From: Thiobacillus sp.
Lineage (GTDB): Bacteria > Pseudomonadota > Gammaproteobacteria > Burkholderiales > Thiobacillaceae
Length of the DNA stretch: 20,747 nucleotides
Reading direction: 5' to 3'
Assembly (NCBI GenBank): GCA_024710445.1
Contig: JANJUT010000043.1
Location: 1 to 20,747, forward strand
Positions 118 to 18,168 of the stretch are shown piece after piece. The position numbers and the translations under genes were made by a program. Position 1 is the stretch's first letter. Every line of letters begins with the position of its first letter. The notes beneath the pieces are model-generated. The model was not told the DNA's origin, ran no database searches, and saw only the letters and a list, made by a program, of their open reading frames with translations.

Positions 118-1626
118 CTACCCTGTGTCCTTTTCACCCAATGCAGCAGCGAATACCAACTGGCCACGCCCACGCTCCTTGGCCTGATACAGTGCGCGGT
201 CTGCACGCGCCAGCGCTTGGCCGATGGTGTCGGATTCCACATCCTGCAGCCAGGTCTGGCCGGCGCTGATCGTATTGCCGATATTCAGGCCCGCAGCACG
301 AAGCTCGCCTTTGAAGTGATCCGCCATGCGCCGATACCAGGCCAGCATGCCCTGATTGTCCAGTCCGGACAGCAACACGACAAACTCGTCCCCGGCCAGG
401 CGGGCTGCCATGTCCGAGCTCCGCGTCAGCGCCTTGAGCGTGTTGGCCAGCGCAATCAGGGCCTGGTCTCCGGCGGCGTGGCCCAGCTGGTCGTTAATGG
501 TCTTGAACAGGTCGAGGTCCAGCAACACCAGGGCCGTGGGACGACCCCGTTCAGCCAGGCCCAGCATGTGCGGAAAACGGGTTTCAAATGCACGGCGATT
601 GGGTAGTCCGGTCAGTGAGTCCGTGTGACTCAGCCGGTCGAGTTGCTCGCGCTGTTCATGCAGATGCACCGCGATCCGGTTGATGGATTCGGCCGCATGG
701 GCGAATTCGCTGTAGCGGGTAACAATGGGCGGAGGGGATTCATCGCGCGTCAGACAGGCAAGCGCGTCCAGCGCCGCTTCGATATCCTGCAAAACCGGGT
801 GGCGCAGCCGTTGCACCACCACAATGAGCAAAACCAGCACACCTGCCAGGGTGAGCATCCCGACGAAAATTTGCATCAAGCCGCTGTAGCTGAGACGCTG
901 CAAGGGCGATTGAACGACCAAACTCCACCCTGTTTTTGGCAATGGCACGCTGATCTCCTGAACAGCACCCTGCAGGGAACCGCTACTGACCACTGGCTTG
1001 CCCGCACCATCACACAGGGTAATAGCATGTCCAGGCTGAGTGGAGTCATCGATGACGCGTTGCAACTGCTCCAGCCGCACACTCACGAATACCTTGCCGA
1101 GTGCTTCATCATCAGGTCCGCGCACCTCAGCGATAAGATCGACATGCTCCAACCCCACCACATCGCGATGGATCGGAGCCTGATTGAGAATACTCGCGCC
1201 GCCCTGGCGAAGGTCGCGCCGACAACTCGGCCCCACGCGCAACAAATTGGTATCGCCATATATTTCGCCTTCCAGGCTCACCAGCGCCAGTCCCAGGATA
1301 CTCGGCACCAATCGCCGACGTGAGTCCGCCCATTGCTCTTTGTCTTCAATCGAGCCGACCAGCATCAGATCAATCAGTTGCGGATCGTGCGAAAGGTTAT
1401 TCACCAAGTCCCGGTAATAATCCCAGTGCCGCATTACATTGGCTTTCGCCTGCACTGCTTCCACATTCAGCAGATGCGCTACAGCGGCCTCATTCGAACG
1501 CAAACTGAATACCAGGCTCAAGGCCATGCCCGCCGTGAACAGGCCCACCACCCCGATCAGCAACCACAGGAAGCGGCGACGCAACGATACAAGCTTGGGG
1601 CCGGGTCCGTGTGGCGTGATCCTCAT
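118..1626 (-). CDS. Membrane-anchored diguanylate cyclase (GGDEF domain)
   Basis: Predicted to make cyclic di-GMP from two GTP at the inner membrane. The 502-residue product has a basic N-terminus, a transmembrane segment at about 18-40, a periplasmic sensor region of about 200 residues, a second transmembrane segment near 250-275, a linker, and a C-terminal GGDEF domain that begins at DSLTGLPNRRAF. The active-site loop reads AGDEF (about 411-415), an accepted variant of GGDEF. Five residues upstream is RSSD, a match to the RxxD inhibitory site, so product inhibition is likely. The DLDLFKTINDQLGH metal/GTP-binding segment is intact. I chose the ATG at 1624-1626, 4 bases after the ruvA stop; a longer in-frame start would overlap ruvA by over 130 bases. 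Its position implies co-transcription with ruvA. The ligand of the periplasmic region cannot be read from the sequence. Confidence 0.9.
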   Translation of the reverse strand: MRITPHGPGPKLVSLRRRFLWLLIGVVGLFTAGMALSLVFSLRSNEAAVAHLLNVEAVQAKANVMRHWDYYRDLVNNLSHDPQLIDLMLVGSIEDKEQWADSRRRLVPSILGLALVSLEGEIYGDTNLLRVGPSCRRDLRQGGASILNQAPIHRDVVGLEHVDLIAEVRGPDDEALGKVFVSVRLEQLQRVIDDSTQPGHAITLCDGAGKPVVSSGSLQGAVQEISVPLPKTGWSLVVQSPLQRLSYSGLMQIFVGMLTLAGVLVLLIVVVQRLRHPVLQDIEAALDALACLTRDESPPPIVTRYSEFAHAAESINRIAVHLHEQREQLDRLSHTDSLTGLPNRRAFETRFPHMLGLAERGRPTALVLLDLDLFKTINDQLGHAAGDQALIALANTLKALTRSSDMAARLAGDEFVVLLSGLDNQGMLAWYRRMADHFKGELRAAGLNIGNTISAGQTWLQDVESDTIGQALARADRALYQAKERGRGQLVFAAALGEKDTG

Positions 1627-1630
1627 GGCT

Positions 1631-2206
1631 TTAGGGGCGCGACAGGCTCCGTAACGCAGACCGGATGGCTTCGCCGACCGGGAGGTCGGCAGGAAGTTGT
1701 CGCAAGGCCTCGGTGGTCTCGCGCTCGTTATACCCCAGTGCCAGCAGCGCTTGTCGCACATCATCCGACACCCCTGCAGGCGCCGCGCTGGCGATGGCGC
1801 CGGCGAATACCAGCTTGCCCTTGAGTTCGAGCAGCAAGCGCTCCGCAGTCTTCTTGCCGATTCCCGGGACTTTCACGATACGGCCGATTTCCTGCTCGGC
1901 AATGGCCACCGACAGATCATTGACCGACAAGCCGGACAGCACGGACAAGGCGGTCTTGGCGCCGATTCCCGAGACCTTCAGCAACTCGCGAAACGCCGCA
2001 CGTTCAATATCGCTGCCAAAGCCATAAAGCAGATGCGCGTCTTCACGAATCGCCAGATGGGTCAGCAGACTGACCTTTTCACCGATGGCGGGGAGGTTGT
2101 AGAACGTGCTCATGGGCACGTCGATTTCGTAGCCGATGCCGTTCACATCCACCAGTACCTGCGGCGGCTGCTTGGCGGCAAGCACGCCGGTAATCCGGCC
2201 TATCAT
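1631..2206 (-). CDS. ruvA: Holliday junction DNA helicase subunit RuvA
   Basis: RuvA binds four-way DNA junctions as a tetramer and loads the RuvB motor for branch migration in recombination and repair. The 191-residue product starts with the family's MIGRITG and has the expected near-200-residue length. Two helix-hairpin-helix DNA-binding motifs are visible: [20 protein letters not shown] and [19 protein letters not shown]. The C-terminal RuvB-binding domain follows a short Ala/Pro-rich linker ([15 protein letters not shown]) and ends in [12 protein letters not shown]. It lies 91 bases after ruvC on the same strand. Downstream is a diguanylate cyclase rather than ruvB, the usual next gene, so ruvB must be elsewhere. 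Confidence 0.97.
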
Positions 2207-7519: not shown

Positions 7520-8440
7520 TTAACTCAGCCACGAGAACTCACCATGTATATCTTTTGCTAGAGCTACTGCACTGGACGTTTTGGGTGCTTGTGTTGCGAC
7601 GCACATCCGGCGCAATGCCCTTCGGTTATTGCGCCCTACTCGAGCTATGCGGGCTGCAACTACCGCCATCAAGCCACAACCAAACAACCACGACACTCCC
7701 GGCTCAGGAACCGCGCTGACATAAAACGCTTGCGTTGAACTGTACGAAGAATCAGCACCATACACGCCCTGCGAATACACCAATCCGCGCGCATCCCATG
7801 GAGCAAAGTAAGTCATTACGATCGACGAACCATCACTCTGATAGTTTAATTGCAGAAGATTGAGCCGCGCGCTGAACCCGGAATCCATCACAGGCGGCAA
7901 TTCCCCGGACAAGCTTCCCCTGTCGAAACCATACGGATCATACGTATACGTATCATACGTATCATACAATTGTCGATATGCGCCGCCTGCCAGCAAATCG
8001 GCAGTCGTCATAAACAAAGACAAGTCGCCACTTTGACCATAAAAACTTCCTGGAACAGGCGCTACCTTATCCAGGAATAGTGTCACAGGGTGCGCTGCCT
8101 CATCAGCACGATAAACGCTTTGGACCCGCATCCACAAATAACCATTGAACGCAGTTGTTATCTGTGTGGTGCTATCAACGTCATAATCGAAATAACCACG
8201 GGTCACCCCGGATGGTTGAGCCAGTTCGTATCTCATTAGCCAACCGCCAGGGTCCCGCCCGGATATCTGGAATGCACTCACACGGTCAAATTCGTATGCG
8301 CTCGAAAGATTGACGCTACAGGCCCCTGTCGCTACGCAGGATTGTATGGAGGCGGGAAGCTCGGAAACGCTTATCGCCTTGGCAGACAACGGAAACACAG
8401 ACAAACAAAACAAGACAGACGCTACCGGAAACGAACGCAT
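7520..8440 (-). CDS. Secreted PEP-CTERM protein with repeat-derived C-terminal tail
   Basis: A 306-residue exported protein. It has a signal peptide (MRSFPVASVLFCLSVFPLSAKA) and, near 244, VPEPGVSWLFGCGLMAVVAARIAR, the exosortase sorting signal: a PEP motif, a hydrophobic segment and basic residues. Such proteins are usually cleaved and attached to the surface or the exopolysaccharide matrix by an exosortase (XrtA/EpsH), not present here. A typical member ends a few residues after the basic cluster. This one continues for about 37 residues, the first 23 of which (VGRNNRRALRRMCVATQAP and on) are encoded by the 69-bp repeat. The repeat therefore seems to have replaced the original 3' end. A YDTYDTYTYDPYG low-complexity stretch lies mid-protein. 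I chose the ATG at 8440 because AAGGGGGGGG precedes it. Confidence 0.85.
   Translation of the reverse strand: MRSFPVASVLFCLSVFPLSAKAISVSELPASIQSCVATGACSVNLSSAYEFDRVSAFQISGRDPGGWLMRYELAQPSGVTRGYFDYDVDSTTQITTAFNGYLWMRVQSVYRADEAAHPVTLFLDKVAPVPGSFYGQSGDLSLFMTTADLLAGGAYRQLYDTYDTYTYDPYGFDRGSLSGELPPVMDSGFSARLNLLQLNYQSDGSSIVMTYFAPWDARGLVYSQGVYGADSSYSSTQAFYVSAVPEPGVSWLFGCGLMAVVAARIARVGRNNRRALRRMCVATQAPKTSSAVALAKDIHGEFSWLS
7571..7639. repeat. 69-bp direct repeat, copy 2, overlapping the PEP-CTERM gene
   Basis: The second copy of 6800-6868. It contains a perfect hairpin, GGCGCAAT (7609-7616) and ATTGCGCC (7628-7635), with an 11-base loop. It resembles widespread palindromic extragenic repeats. It is read as coding sequence for the tail of the PEP-CTERM protein. 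Confidence 0.95.
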
Positions 8441-8517
8441 ACCCCCCCCTTTTTTATTTACGCGACTTGGCGTTCTCCGGGGCACACTTCTCCGGCGCGC
8501 CTCTTGGTTTATTTATA

Positions 8518-16058: not shown

Positions 16059-16082
16059 AAAAAAAAGCGCCCCGAAGGGCGC
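16059..16082 (-). terminator. Rho-independent terminator of the S8 protease gene
   Basis: On the minus strand GCGCCC-TTCG-GGGCGC is followed by eight T. The perfect 6-bp stem has a stable TTCG loop. It lies 29 bases after the protease stop. The plus side has no T-tract, so it should not end the FMN reductase transcript efficiently. Confidence 0.93.
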
Positions 16083-16110
16083 CAGCTGCTGCAGAGCAGG
16101 GCGAAATTGC

Positions 16111-17964
16111 TTATTTGTAAACCGTAACGGACCGGGTGGTGACGTTGCCCGTGTTGTCGGTAACCTGCACCGTGACCGTGTGGGCACCGCTGACCACTTT
16201 ACGGGTATTCCAGTTGTAGCGGAGCGAACTGCCATACGCAGTGGCCACTTCTTTGCCGTCGATCGACAGCGAGATCTTGGCAACACTCTGGTTGTCTGTG
16301 GCGCTCACGTTAATCGTCTGCTTGCCACCGGAGAGGCTCATGCCATCCGTGAGGTTGAAGCTTCCGATCGTGGGTGCAGCGCTGTCGTTGCCAACCGTGA
16401 CCGTAACGGGTTGCGACTCCCTGCGATTACCCGCTGCGTCCACCGCCAGCACTCTCAGGCTGTAACTGCCATCAGCCTTGCCTGTGGTATCCCATGCGAA
16501 TGCAAATGGTGCCAGCTCGTCTGTGGCGACCAATTGACCATTCACGTGAAGTTCGACGCGCACGACGCCTACATTGTCGGAAGACTCGATATCGATCGGC
16601 ACCACACCGGATACCTGCCCGCCCGTGGGTGACGCGATGCTGACGGATGGGGGTTGAGTGTCGACCACGACGATCGGCTTGGCTGCCAGAACCGCAGCCG
16701 CCGCATTGACGCGACCGAAACCGTAGTATTGATCATAACCAGATGACCCGAGATCGATGCTCTTCCCGGTCAGGAAACGGTCTACATCGGCGGGGGTCAG
16801 CTTGCTGTTGGCCGACAGCATCAACGCGGCCGTAGCGGCCACCACGGGACTGGCGAACGAAGTGCCGGAAGCGTTGGCATATCCCCCGCCTCGTGTCGAA
16901 GTGTAGATACTCACGCCAGGCGCAGACAGGTCGACATAGTCACCGTAGCTGGAAAAACTGGCGCGCACATCGTTTTTGTCTGTTGCCGCCACCGTCATCA
17001 ACGCATCATTCGACGCAATGTTTTCCAGTGCGCCACTGTTGCCGGCAGCCACCACCACGACCCCACCCTTGTTGCGCATATATTGCGCCGCCGCCTGAAT
17101 GGTCAAACTGCCCGACACACCGTTGTAACTGATGTTTGCAACTTTGGCGCCATGATCGGCTGCCCAGTAAATACCCTGCGCCACCGTGCTCCAATATGCG
17201 TAGCCATTGGGGTCGGCAATGCGCACCGGCATGATCCGGGCCCCCCAGGCCACACCCGCACTGCCCGCACCGTTATTCGCCGCCATCGCCACCACCCCGG
17301 CCACCGAGGTGCCGTGGCCATGGACATCCGCCGTGTTGGCGTTGTTGTCGAATACGTTCCAGCCGGGCACCATGTTCGCGGCCAGATCCGGATGCGTGCC
17401 ATCCACCCCGGTATCCAGGATGGCAACCGTGACACCGCTGCCATTGGCGCTGTCCCATGCAGTGGGTGCCTGGATTTTCGGCAGCGCCCAACTGCTGCCG
17501 TAGGCTGGATCCGTCACCGACCCGGCGTGGGCCACGGCCATATCCAGTTCGACATATTTGAGGCGGCGATTCTTGCGCAGCTCCTTCATGGTCGCCAGTT
17601 CATCGGCGCCCGCAGGCAATTCGACAACATGCGTATTCAATTGCCGAATATAGCCTTTGGAACGGCCCTTGAATGGCTTCAGCGCCTGATCGAATTCACC
17701 TGCCGGCAAGCCGGCACGCGGCGCCACCAGCAAGCGCCCCCTGGCCCATCCCAGATAGGGCTGAACCCTGGCGGGAGCAGCAGCCGGCGCCACGGCATTG
17801 TCATTGCCCCGAGCCTTGCCGGAGGGAGCCGCATGACTAAAACCCGCATAGCCCATCAAGGCCGCCACCAGCGCAAGACACAAGGTAAAACCCGGTGCGG
17901 TACCTGTTTGGTAGCTGCAGCGGCTATTGGTTGAACGGACGGGGAACGGGCATTGGTGTGACAT
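16111..17964 (-). CDS. Secreted subtilisin-like serine protease (S8) with two Ig-like domains
   Basis: A 617-residue exported protease. After a long basic n-region comes a hydrophobic signal core (FTLCLALVAALMGYAGFSHA, about 26-45). A propeptide-like segment spans roughly 70-145. The S8 domain has its triad at D184 (AILDTGVDGTHPDL), H217 (VHGHGTSVAG) and S369 (GTSFASPVVA), with the oxyanion Asn N309 (AAGNSG). Two beta-sandwich repeats follow at about 430-525 and 527-617, each starting D..PP/AP and ending AGN..SQPVTVTV or TGN..TRSVTVYK (Big_9-like). These usually serve binding or spacing outside the cell. There is no PEP-CTERM or lipobox. AGGAG precedes the ATG at 17964. The leader carries a cyclic di-GMP riboswitch, so production probably depends on the second messenger. 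Confidence 0.95.
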   Translation of the reverse strand: MSHQCPFPVRSTNSRCSYQTGTAPGFTLCLALVAALMGYAGFSHAAPSGKARGNDNAVAPAAAPARVQPYLGWARGRLLVAPRAGLPAGEFDQALKPFKGRSKGYIRQLNTHVVELPAGADELATMKELRKNRRLKYVELDMAVAHAGSVTDPAYGSSWALPKIQAPTAWDSANGSGVTVAILDTGVDGTHPDLAANMVPGWNVFDNNANTADVHGHGTSVAGVVAMAANNGAGSAGVAWGARIMPVRIADPNGYAYWSTVAQGIYWAADHGAKVANISYNGVSGSLTIQAAAQYMRNKGGVVVVAAGNSGALENIASNDALMTVAATDKNDVRASFSSYGDYVDLSAPGVSIYTSTRGGGYANASGTSFASPVVAATAALMLSANSKLTPADVDRFLTGKSIDLGSSGYDQYYGFGRVNAAAAVLAAKPIVVVDTQPPSVSIASPTGGQVSGVVPIDIESSDNVGVVRVELHVNGQLVATDELAPFAFAWDTTGKADGSYSLRVLAVDAAGNRRESQPVTVTVGNDSAAPTIGSFNLTDGMSLSGGKQTINVSATDNQSVAKISLSIDGKEVATAYGSSLRYNWNTRKVVSGAHTVTVQVTDNTGNVTTRSVTVYK

Positions 17965-18029
17965 GGGGACTCCTGGTTCAAAAAACTGCCTGAATCAGGG
18001 ACCAACGCACCAGCCAAAAAACGATTTTC

Positions 18030-18105
18030 TTCGGCAACCCCGCTATCTTTTGCAAGACCGGAAGCTTTGCGTCCCCACCTCGCGATGGGTTTGCCCTTGT
18101 ACAGG
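18030..18105 (-). promoter_or_regulatory. Cyclic di-GMP-I riboswitch (GEMM-I) in the protease leader
   Basis: Read on the minus strand the GEMM-I blocks appear in order: GGGCAAACC (18096-18088); hairpin P2 CCCATC-GCGA-GGTGGG (18089-18074) with a GNRA loop; GGACGCAAAGC (18074-18064); CCGG; hairpin P3 TCTT-GCAA-AAGA (18057-18046); and TAGCGGGGTTGCC (18045-18033). The positions that match G20, A47 and C92 of the Vibrio Vc2 aptamer are conserved, and GGCAA is complementary to the closing TTGCC. The aptamer ends about 66 bases before the protease ATG. After it, GCCGAAGAAA can pair with TTTTTTGGC and overlaps the closing strand, so a switching element is plausible. The direction of control cannot be read with certainty. 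Confidence 0.92.
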
Positions 18106-18168
18106 TTATCAACAGTAACGACGAAATTTCGACGGACTTTAGGCTTGGGAAATAAAACCGTTAAAAAT

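Follow-up and report, generated by a model that had tools for sequence, protein, structure and literature searches.

Does a Thiobacillus cell connect the production of an exported protease to cyclic di-GMP (c-di-GMP), with the RNA leader of the protease gene as the switch? The window, by which we mean the whole 20,747-nucleotide stretch of DNA that was analysed, comes from a genome assembly that is 76.6% complete (2.4 Mb in 292 contigs). An earlier sequence-only reading had placed a GEMM-I riboswitch in the minus-strand leader of a subtilisin-like gene in this window. The features concerned are the following, in the direction of transcription.

18115..18141, minus strand: sigma28-like promoter motif, TAAAGTCC-N11-GTCGTTAC (pattern match in the same genome)
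18105..18029/18030, minus strand: c-di-GMP class I riboswitch aptamer (RF03167 and RF01051)
18094-18093/18070-18069, minus strand: aptamer helix P1b (position from the cmscan alignment, pairing checked)
18089-18074, minus strand: aptamer helix P2 with its loop (cmscan alignment, pairing checked)
18066-18036, minus strand: aptamer helix P3 with its loop (cmscan alignment, pairing checked)
18035-18033, minus strand: terminal GCC of the aptamer (cmscan alignment)
18013..18035, minus strand: candidate competing hairpin GCCGAAGAA/TTTTTTGGC, which would engage the aptamer's terminal GCC
17972..18000, minus strand: hairpin CCCTG..TTCAGG/TTTGAA..CAGG covering part of the Shine-Dalgarno sequence (predicted by folding)
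17970..17974, minus strand: Shine-Dalgarno sequence AGGAG
17969-17965, minus strand: spacer TCCCC, complementary with its neighbours to the P2 3' strand GTGGGGAC
16111..17964, minus strand: exported S8 (subtilisin/thermitase-like) protease, 617 aa (Pfam; structure match to thermitase, 1thm)
17824..17964, minus strand: conserved leader formed by the first 47 protease codons, with a single hydrophobic segment and a long n-region (occurs as a short ORF of its own in 13 Thiobacillus genomes)
16066..16083, minus strand: intrinsic-terminator-like hairpin with a T tail, 3' of the protease gene

When the whole window was searched with cmscan, the aptamer was the sole RNA family match at gathering level. 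It scored 67.1 bits with RF01051 (minus strand 18105-18029; gathering score 35) and 63.7 bits with RF03167 (gathering score 59, E-value 3.4e-13), and clan competition within Rfam assigns it the name c-di-GMP-I-GGC (RF03167). The conserved blocks GGGCAAA, GGGACGCAAAG and GCGGGGNNGCC are present together with P3, the core columns are kept, and GNRA loops read from the sequence cap both P2 (GCGA) and P3 (GCAA). The 3' end of the aptamer lies 65 nt from the protease start codon (17964..17962). The GEMM-I assignment, the blocks, the two GNRA loops and the coordinates proposed earlier all hold, and the lack of a significant RF01051 score, named then as a refutation, did not occur. By its match in sequence and structure above both curated thresholds, the element is a genuine class I c-di-GMP aptamer, with ligand binding predicted. 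Passages of the literature seen on c-di-GMP-I-GGC list or use the model and have no bearing on the protease locus.

The window copy differs from both Rfam families in its P1, a very poor helix that is the weak point of this aptamer: two of the three model pairs are non-standard in the cmscan alignment. A lenient automatic count of contiguous P1 pairs, covering 42 of the 43 protease-linked aptamers described below, gave 2 for L133, whose P1 strands are identical to those of the window; of the other 41, 36 had 3-5 pairs and five had 1-2. A P1 among the six poorest of the 42 would fit an aptamer that is intact in outline and has lost switching in the window's lineage, leaving the protease constitutive from its promoter. 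Against such a loss stand the kept core columns, the scores over both Rfam thresholds and the retention of an aptamer by L133, a relative with a 97% identical protease. We regard it as unlikely, and return below to two further observations in its favour.

Class I variants with changed ligand specificity are known, and the ligand could in principle be another cyclic dinucleotide, 3',3'-cGAMP. We take the second G of GGGC to be the c-di-GMP-type residue and an A in its place to be the cGAMP-type variant. This A is found in two relatives, L090 (class C, see below) and L018 (another family). The window copy has G, and a protein with a GGDEF domain (Pfam) is encoded in the same window (118-1764, minus strand); with both points against it, cGAMP is a very improbable ligand here. 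A search for the specificity residues by name found none in the accessible part of PMC6274999.

The downstream gene product contains a fervidolysin-like prodomain, a Peptidase_S8 domain at residues 175-417 (E 1.5e-51, 175.9 bits vs a cut-off of 21.8) and two Big_7 Ig-like stretches (Pfam), and its N-terminus is signal-peptide-like by eye, in agreement with the proposal of an exported subtilisin-like protease with Ig-like domains. Asp184, His217 and Ser369, which we take to be the S8 catalytic triad, are invariant across seven protease sequences. The closest solved structures by sequence are thermitase (the best, 1thm) and subtilisins, and the protease is 97% identical to that of Thiobacillus sp. 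MAG_64. Since the terminator-like hairpin at 16083-16066 ends the gene, the aptamer and the protease look like one unit. Elsewhere in the window, the protein encoded at 7520-8485 (minus strand) has no Pfam match and ends in a tail that by eye we take to be PEP-CTERM-like.

If the aptamer serves the protease, the two should stay together in other genomes. A profile built from seven proteases of the genus gave 65 loci in species-representative genomes; 60 of these were searched at the Rfam gathering level and all 65 with a custom model based on 23 aptamers from the genus and its order. A same-strand aptamer lies just upstream of the protease start in 43 of the 65 loci, at -20 to 167 nt by automatic start choice. 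Rfam detects 39 of the 43, and the remaining four (L133, L147, L148 and L152) were seen by the custom model only because they were outside the Rfam runs. The 22 loci without an upstream aptamer include one that has no upstream DNA (L162) and two in which the aptamer is downstream of the protease instead (L159 and L167). Strong aptamers elsewhere in the 446 kb of these loci number only five. In a protease tree with 64 members (all 65 except L195, which was short), the presence of the aptamer requires 7 changes, compared with a mean of 18.5 for shuffled labels, and none of 500 shuffles was as low. All 18 entries of the Thiobacillus and Nitrotoga clade, one of them titled Nitrosomonas eutropha, have the aptamer, and the six of a clade of Mitsuaria and relatives lack it, as do the entries from Armatimonadota, Acidobacteriota and Planctomycetota. 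By title the aptamer-bearing loci are mostly betaproteobacterial; L192 is titled Gammaproteobacteria and L166 Gemmatimonadetes. As judged from these sequences, the association of a class I aptamer with the 5' leader of the exported S8 protease is conserved and follows the protease tree.

Further class I aptamers lie near, not before, proteases at L159:6255-6341, L167:6106-6192, L160:1937-2024 (minus strand) and L185:5611-5694 (minus strand), and a Betaproteobacteria toxic small RNA (RF02278; L174:2586-2647) is found 5' of an aptamer-less protease.

Within the genus, 34 of 36 Thiobacillus genomes contain a class I aptamer match. The 58 matches were sorted by sequence and downstream gene into class A (31, before DUF1631-type genes, Pfam having been run on one), class B (21), class C (4, before a DUF1540-type protein, again with Pfam run on one) and two others, one of which is below threshold. 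Of the class B aptamers, 20 stand before the protease in whole, broken or leader-only form and one before a different exported protein. A near-full-length protease is present in 9 of the 36 genomes, two of the nine being cut by contig ends. The genome of the window has one further over-threshold aptamer, on contig C100, and the orthologue of its downstream gene in G006 is a DUF1631 gene. This copy (L071:1839-1931) and the 30 other class A aptamers have a P1 that looks good by eye and, some 45 nt upstream, a sigma28-like motif. The genes after aptamers in G048, G049 and G057 resemble DUF1631-type genes by eye. The class C aptamers (L074, L030, L079 and L090) precede a short DUF1540-type protein, and a class B aptamer (L022, G035:C32) precedes an exported-looking protein with, by eye, a similar long n-region.

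From where would the leader be transcribed? The sigma28 (FliA) promoter consensus consists of TAAAGTTT-N11-GCCGATAA-like boxes, and motifs within about 110 nt were scored against this consensus (maximum 16, threshold at least 13). In class B, 16 of 21 leaders reach 13/16, all at 7-11 nt before the aptamer (shuffles, 0.1%). The threshold is also reached by 29 of 31 class A leaders, 28 of them at 43-46 nt before the aptamer and one oddly placed, and by all six Nitrotoga-type leaders, compared with 3 of 23 other protease leaders (a further two had too little upstream DNA to be counted), none of the four class C leaders, 1 of the 11 remaining aptamers and 0.1-0.7% of shuffled sequences; these counts are of related leaders and so of non-independent sequences. 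A strict pattern occurs at 3, 4 and 4 sites in three genomes (1, 0 and 0 for a reversed-pattern control), and proteins downstream of the strict-pattern sites carry GGDEF, EAL-HDOD, dynamin and outer-membrane transport domains (Pfam, four proteins); another such site precedes a DUF1631 gene.

The motif is similar to the FliA motif described in the part of PMC3627812 that was available. Assignment of the promoter to FliA was rejected, as in the flagellin-type control no motif of that score lay within 220 nt of the matched domain at any of 16 loci from eight Thiobacillus genomes. Because flagellin-type loci of the genus lack the motif, the sigma factor is unproven, and the motif before the aptamer is best described by its sequence as sigma28-like, with no closer assignment. 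Two FliA-type sigma factors score above the curated cut-off in 26 of the 36 Thiobacillus genomes, so a FliA paralogue with its own specificity is possible. Five of the flagellin-type loci (L211, L212, L213, L216 and L222) share TTAACTTT-N11-GACGATTC about 120-135 nt 5' of the matched domain, perhaps another promoter variant. If the motif in the window is used, transcription would start at about 18109-18106, at the 5' end of the aptamer; an RNA that begins almost at the aptamer would fit the short P1.

We then asked of the leader sequence how an aptamer placed in this way could act on the gene. No terminator-like site was found between the aptamer and the ATG, which leaves translation, Rho or RNA decay as the level of control. 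The sequence-only reading had proposed two switching elements. Its competing stem, GCCGAAGAA with TTTTTTGGC, is stable in the window (-7.7 kcal/mol, z -2.8) and was rejected as a conserved switch, since over 22 Thiobacillus leaders the terminal strand showed no preference in pairing for the downstream region of its own leader over the regions from other species (p 0.78). Its pairing of the Shine-Dalgarno sequence with an upstream CCTG is likewise predicted by folding, and CCTGATTCAGG of this hairpin recurs in several other Thiobacillus leaders, but the stretch that holds it folds no better than shuffles (z 0.12). An analogous hairpin covering the Shine-Dalgarno sequence is common to the six Nitrotoga-type leaders, where 96.9% of cells are paired compared with 32-44% when the structure is slid; no two-sided changes were found among these six.

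The free fold of the window leader contains two such pairings, that of the P2 3' strand with the spacer and ATG (P 0.86) and that of the aptamer's terminal GCC with a downstream GGC (P 1.00). A fold constrained to form the aptamer has a mean openness of 0.42, up from 0.13, over the 8 nt that run from spacer to ATG, but the ATG triplet taken by itself loses openness (0.34 to 0.17), and the Shine-Dalgarno sequence stays nearly as it was (0.20 to 0.22). This constrained fold is weaker than the free one by 14 kcal/mol, which makes switching at equilibrium implausible, so that the aptamer has to be assumed to fold co-transcriptionally; the same energy gap is the second observation that favours a window lineage without switching. 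The pairing of the P2 strand with spacer and ATG is strongest in the window (-18.7 kcal/mol) and in G011 (-16.8 kcal/mol). As a conserved device it was discarded, own partners being no better than mismatched ones over the 22 leaders (p 0.25). In the same permutations, p was 0.27 for the aptamer with the Shine-Dalgarno sequence, 0.25 for the P2 strand with the Shine-Dalgarno sequence and 0.78 for the terminal strand with the platform; platform and Shine-Dalgarno sequence paired somewhat better with their own partner (p 0.056). An alifold analysis of the 22 Thiobacillus platforms gave no consensus structure.

Control of the protease is probably translational. Folding was rejected as a guide to its direction: Shine-Dalgarno openness over 28 leaders (one of 29 was skipped) showed no trend, bound exceeding free in 12, and in the window leader the spacer opens while the ATG closes. 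Both directions of control are known from other bacteria. In C. difficile, c-di-GMP lowered six class I-linked loci and raised one (PMC6200980, as far as seen), and V. cholerae is described, in the part of PMC6366702 available, as using both directions without termination. With the folding evidence mixed and these precedents on both sides, c-di-GMP may switch the protease either ON or OFF, the two being almost equally probable and each at somewhat less than even odds.

The first 47 codons of the protease raise a separate question, namely whether the riboswitch mainly serves the leader peptide, with the protease as one of several attached bodies. In 13 Thiobacillus genomes the N-terminal leader occurs without the catalytic body as a separate ORF of 44-84 aa: 12 have 62-84 codons, and that of G031, which stops after 44, may be decaying. 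The ORF of G014 keeps some prodomain sequence. Two of the 13 genomes (G030 and G035) have a whole protease besides the leader-only ORF, and three more genomes (G021, G012 and G003) have a broken protease, with decayed protease sequence still following the leader in G021 and G012. Several leader-only loci end in the same type of terminator as the intact gene, so the protease body probably disappeared in place. In a 31-genome DUF1631 tree, several changes are required to explain the leader-only state, and a genome with an intact gene may stand next to a leader-only one.

Nine of the 13 were compared over codons 1-47, and each of the 36 pairs gave a pN/pS between 0.11 and 0.39 (Fisher p ≤ 4.4e-4); pairs within the G020-G032-G034 group of the DUF1631 tree, which has no intact protease (support 85/86, some long branches), lay at 0.25-0.28. 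The median dN/dS of these codons is 0.15 (66 unsaturated of 78 pairs among all 13) vs 0.17 in seven intact copies; as the DUF1631 tree suggests, part of the constraint on the leader may predate loss of the body. A protein search that admitted only proteins near the query length returned 42 clusters of 62-113 residues; none has a precomputed Pfam domain and several are named hypothetical protein. The structure model of the leader, based on 27 of the 42 proteins, is a single helix (24-41) with a mean pLDDT of 58 and is uninformative. The leader motif PGFTL resembles a prepilin site and was rejected as one, since the Glu usual in such sites is absent and the motif does not occur in all copies.

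An over-threshold aptamer lies upstream at 8 of the 13 leader-only loci. Aptamer remnants were recognized by eye at three others (G020, G029 and G032), and none is listed at the second copy of G030 and at G031; dependence on the aptamer can thus be lost, which is the third point in favour of a window lineage that no longer switches. The persistence of the leader at these five loci also counts against a riboswitch devoted mainly to the leader peptide, as does a member of another family (G051) in which the signal peptide of the protease behind the aptamer is unrelated. The separate ORFs, eight of them behind an aptamer, their low pN/pS and the 42 protein clusters speak for such a role, which we nevertheless judge improbable. 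Somewhat less doubtful, and still speculative, is that the 47-residue leader is a functional small protein, the protease body having been lost in place repeatedly in Thiobacillus while the leader was kept under protein-level constraint, often with promoter and aptamer, so as to form a family of c-di-GMP-regulated signal-peptide-like microproteins. In L129 and L130 (G019 and G033) a different protein, about 275 residues long, starts with a relative of the leader, and in L072 (G035:C44) and L080 (G030:C128) the leader-only ORF is near and after a whole protease, in G035 each with its own aptamer.

The reading that we favour, with a probability of roughly 80%, is that the leader works as a class I c-di-GMP riboswitch and so adjusts production of the exported subtilisin-family protease, most likely at translation. 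Transcription would probably begin at the 5' edge of the aptamer, from the sigma28-like promoter; the aptamer would fold co-transcriptionally, ahead of equilibrium; and binding of c-di-GMP would compete with the pairings that hide the Shine-Dalgarno sequence, the spacer and the start codon, so that protease output is adjusted, most likely as translation.

A secreted protease under a c-di-GMP riboswitch has a precedent in C. difficile, a Firmicute, and the novelty claimed for this pairing was overstated. In C. difficile the secreted metalloprotease gene zmpI is negatively regulated via the class I riboswitch Cdi-1-12 (PMC6200980, in the passages available), so that in both systems a secreted protease gene has a class I c-di-GMP riboswitch in its leader. 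They differ in that ZmpI is a zinc metalloprotease and the window protease a subtilisin, and in that zmpI is regulated negatively and the class I riboswitches of C. difficile are described as transcription terminators (PMC6366702, in part), whereas no terminator is seen in the window leader. Five of the 12 class I aptamers of C. difficile are counted there as nonfunctional (PMC6366702, same part), a point against a working switch in the window. The merRNA of Bdellovibrio, a c-di-GMP riboswitch RNA, is abundant in the attack phase, in whose programme a FliA-like motif dominates (PMC3627812, in part), and it resembles our case as a c-di-GMP riboswitch RNA within a motile-phase programme with sigma28-like promoters; no conserved ORF lies downstream of it, and the table seen of that paper does not mark it for a FliA promoter, whereas the window aptamer precedes a conserved gene. 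LapD-type control of periplasmic proteolysis also ties c-di-GMP to proteolysis outside the cytoplasm, but through a protein receptor and no RNA (PMC3032553, as far as available), in place of the RNA aptamer of the window.

In the full-text literature searched, the pairing of a c-di-GMP riboswitch with a subtilisin/S8 protease is unreported in the titles and passages returned; the GEMM- and GGC-defining papers might mention it. With the present analysis, c-di-GMP riboswitches would have a second protease family among their targets, in a link conserved in Betaproteobacteria that include nitrifiers (loci titled Nitrosomonas, Nitrosospira and Candidatus Nitrotoga) and Thiobacillus. That the arrangement is kept in many related bacteria suggests that extracellular protein cutting is adjusted at the switch between swimming and settling. 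The leader-only loci pose the question of a signal peptide that outlives its protein, and the aptamer-bearing proteases that of whether c-di-GMP turns extracellular proteolysis up or down when the cells attach.
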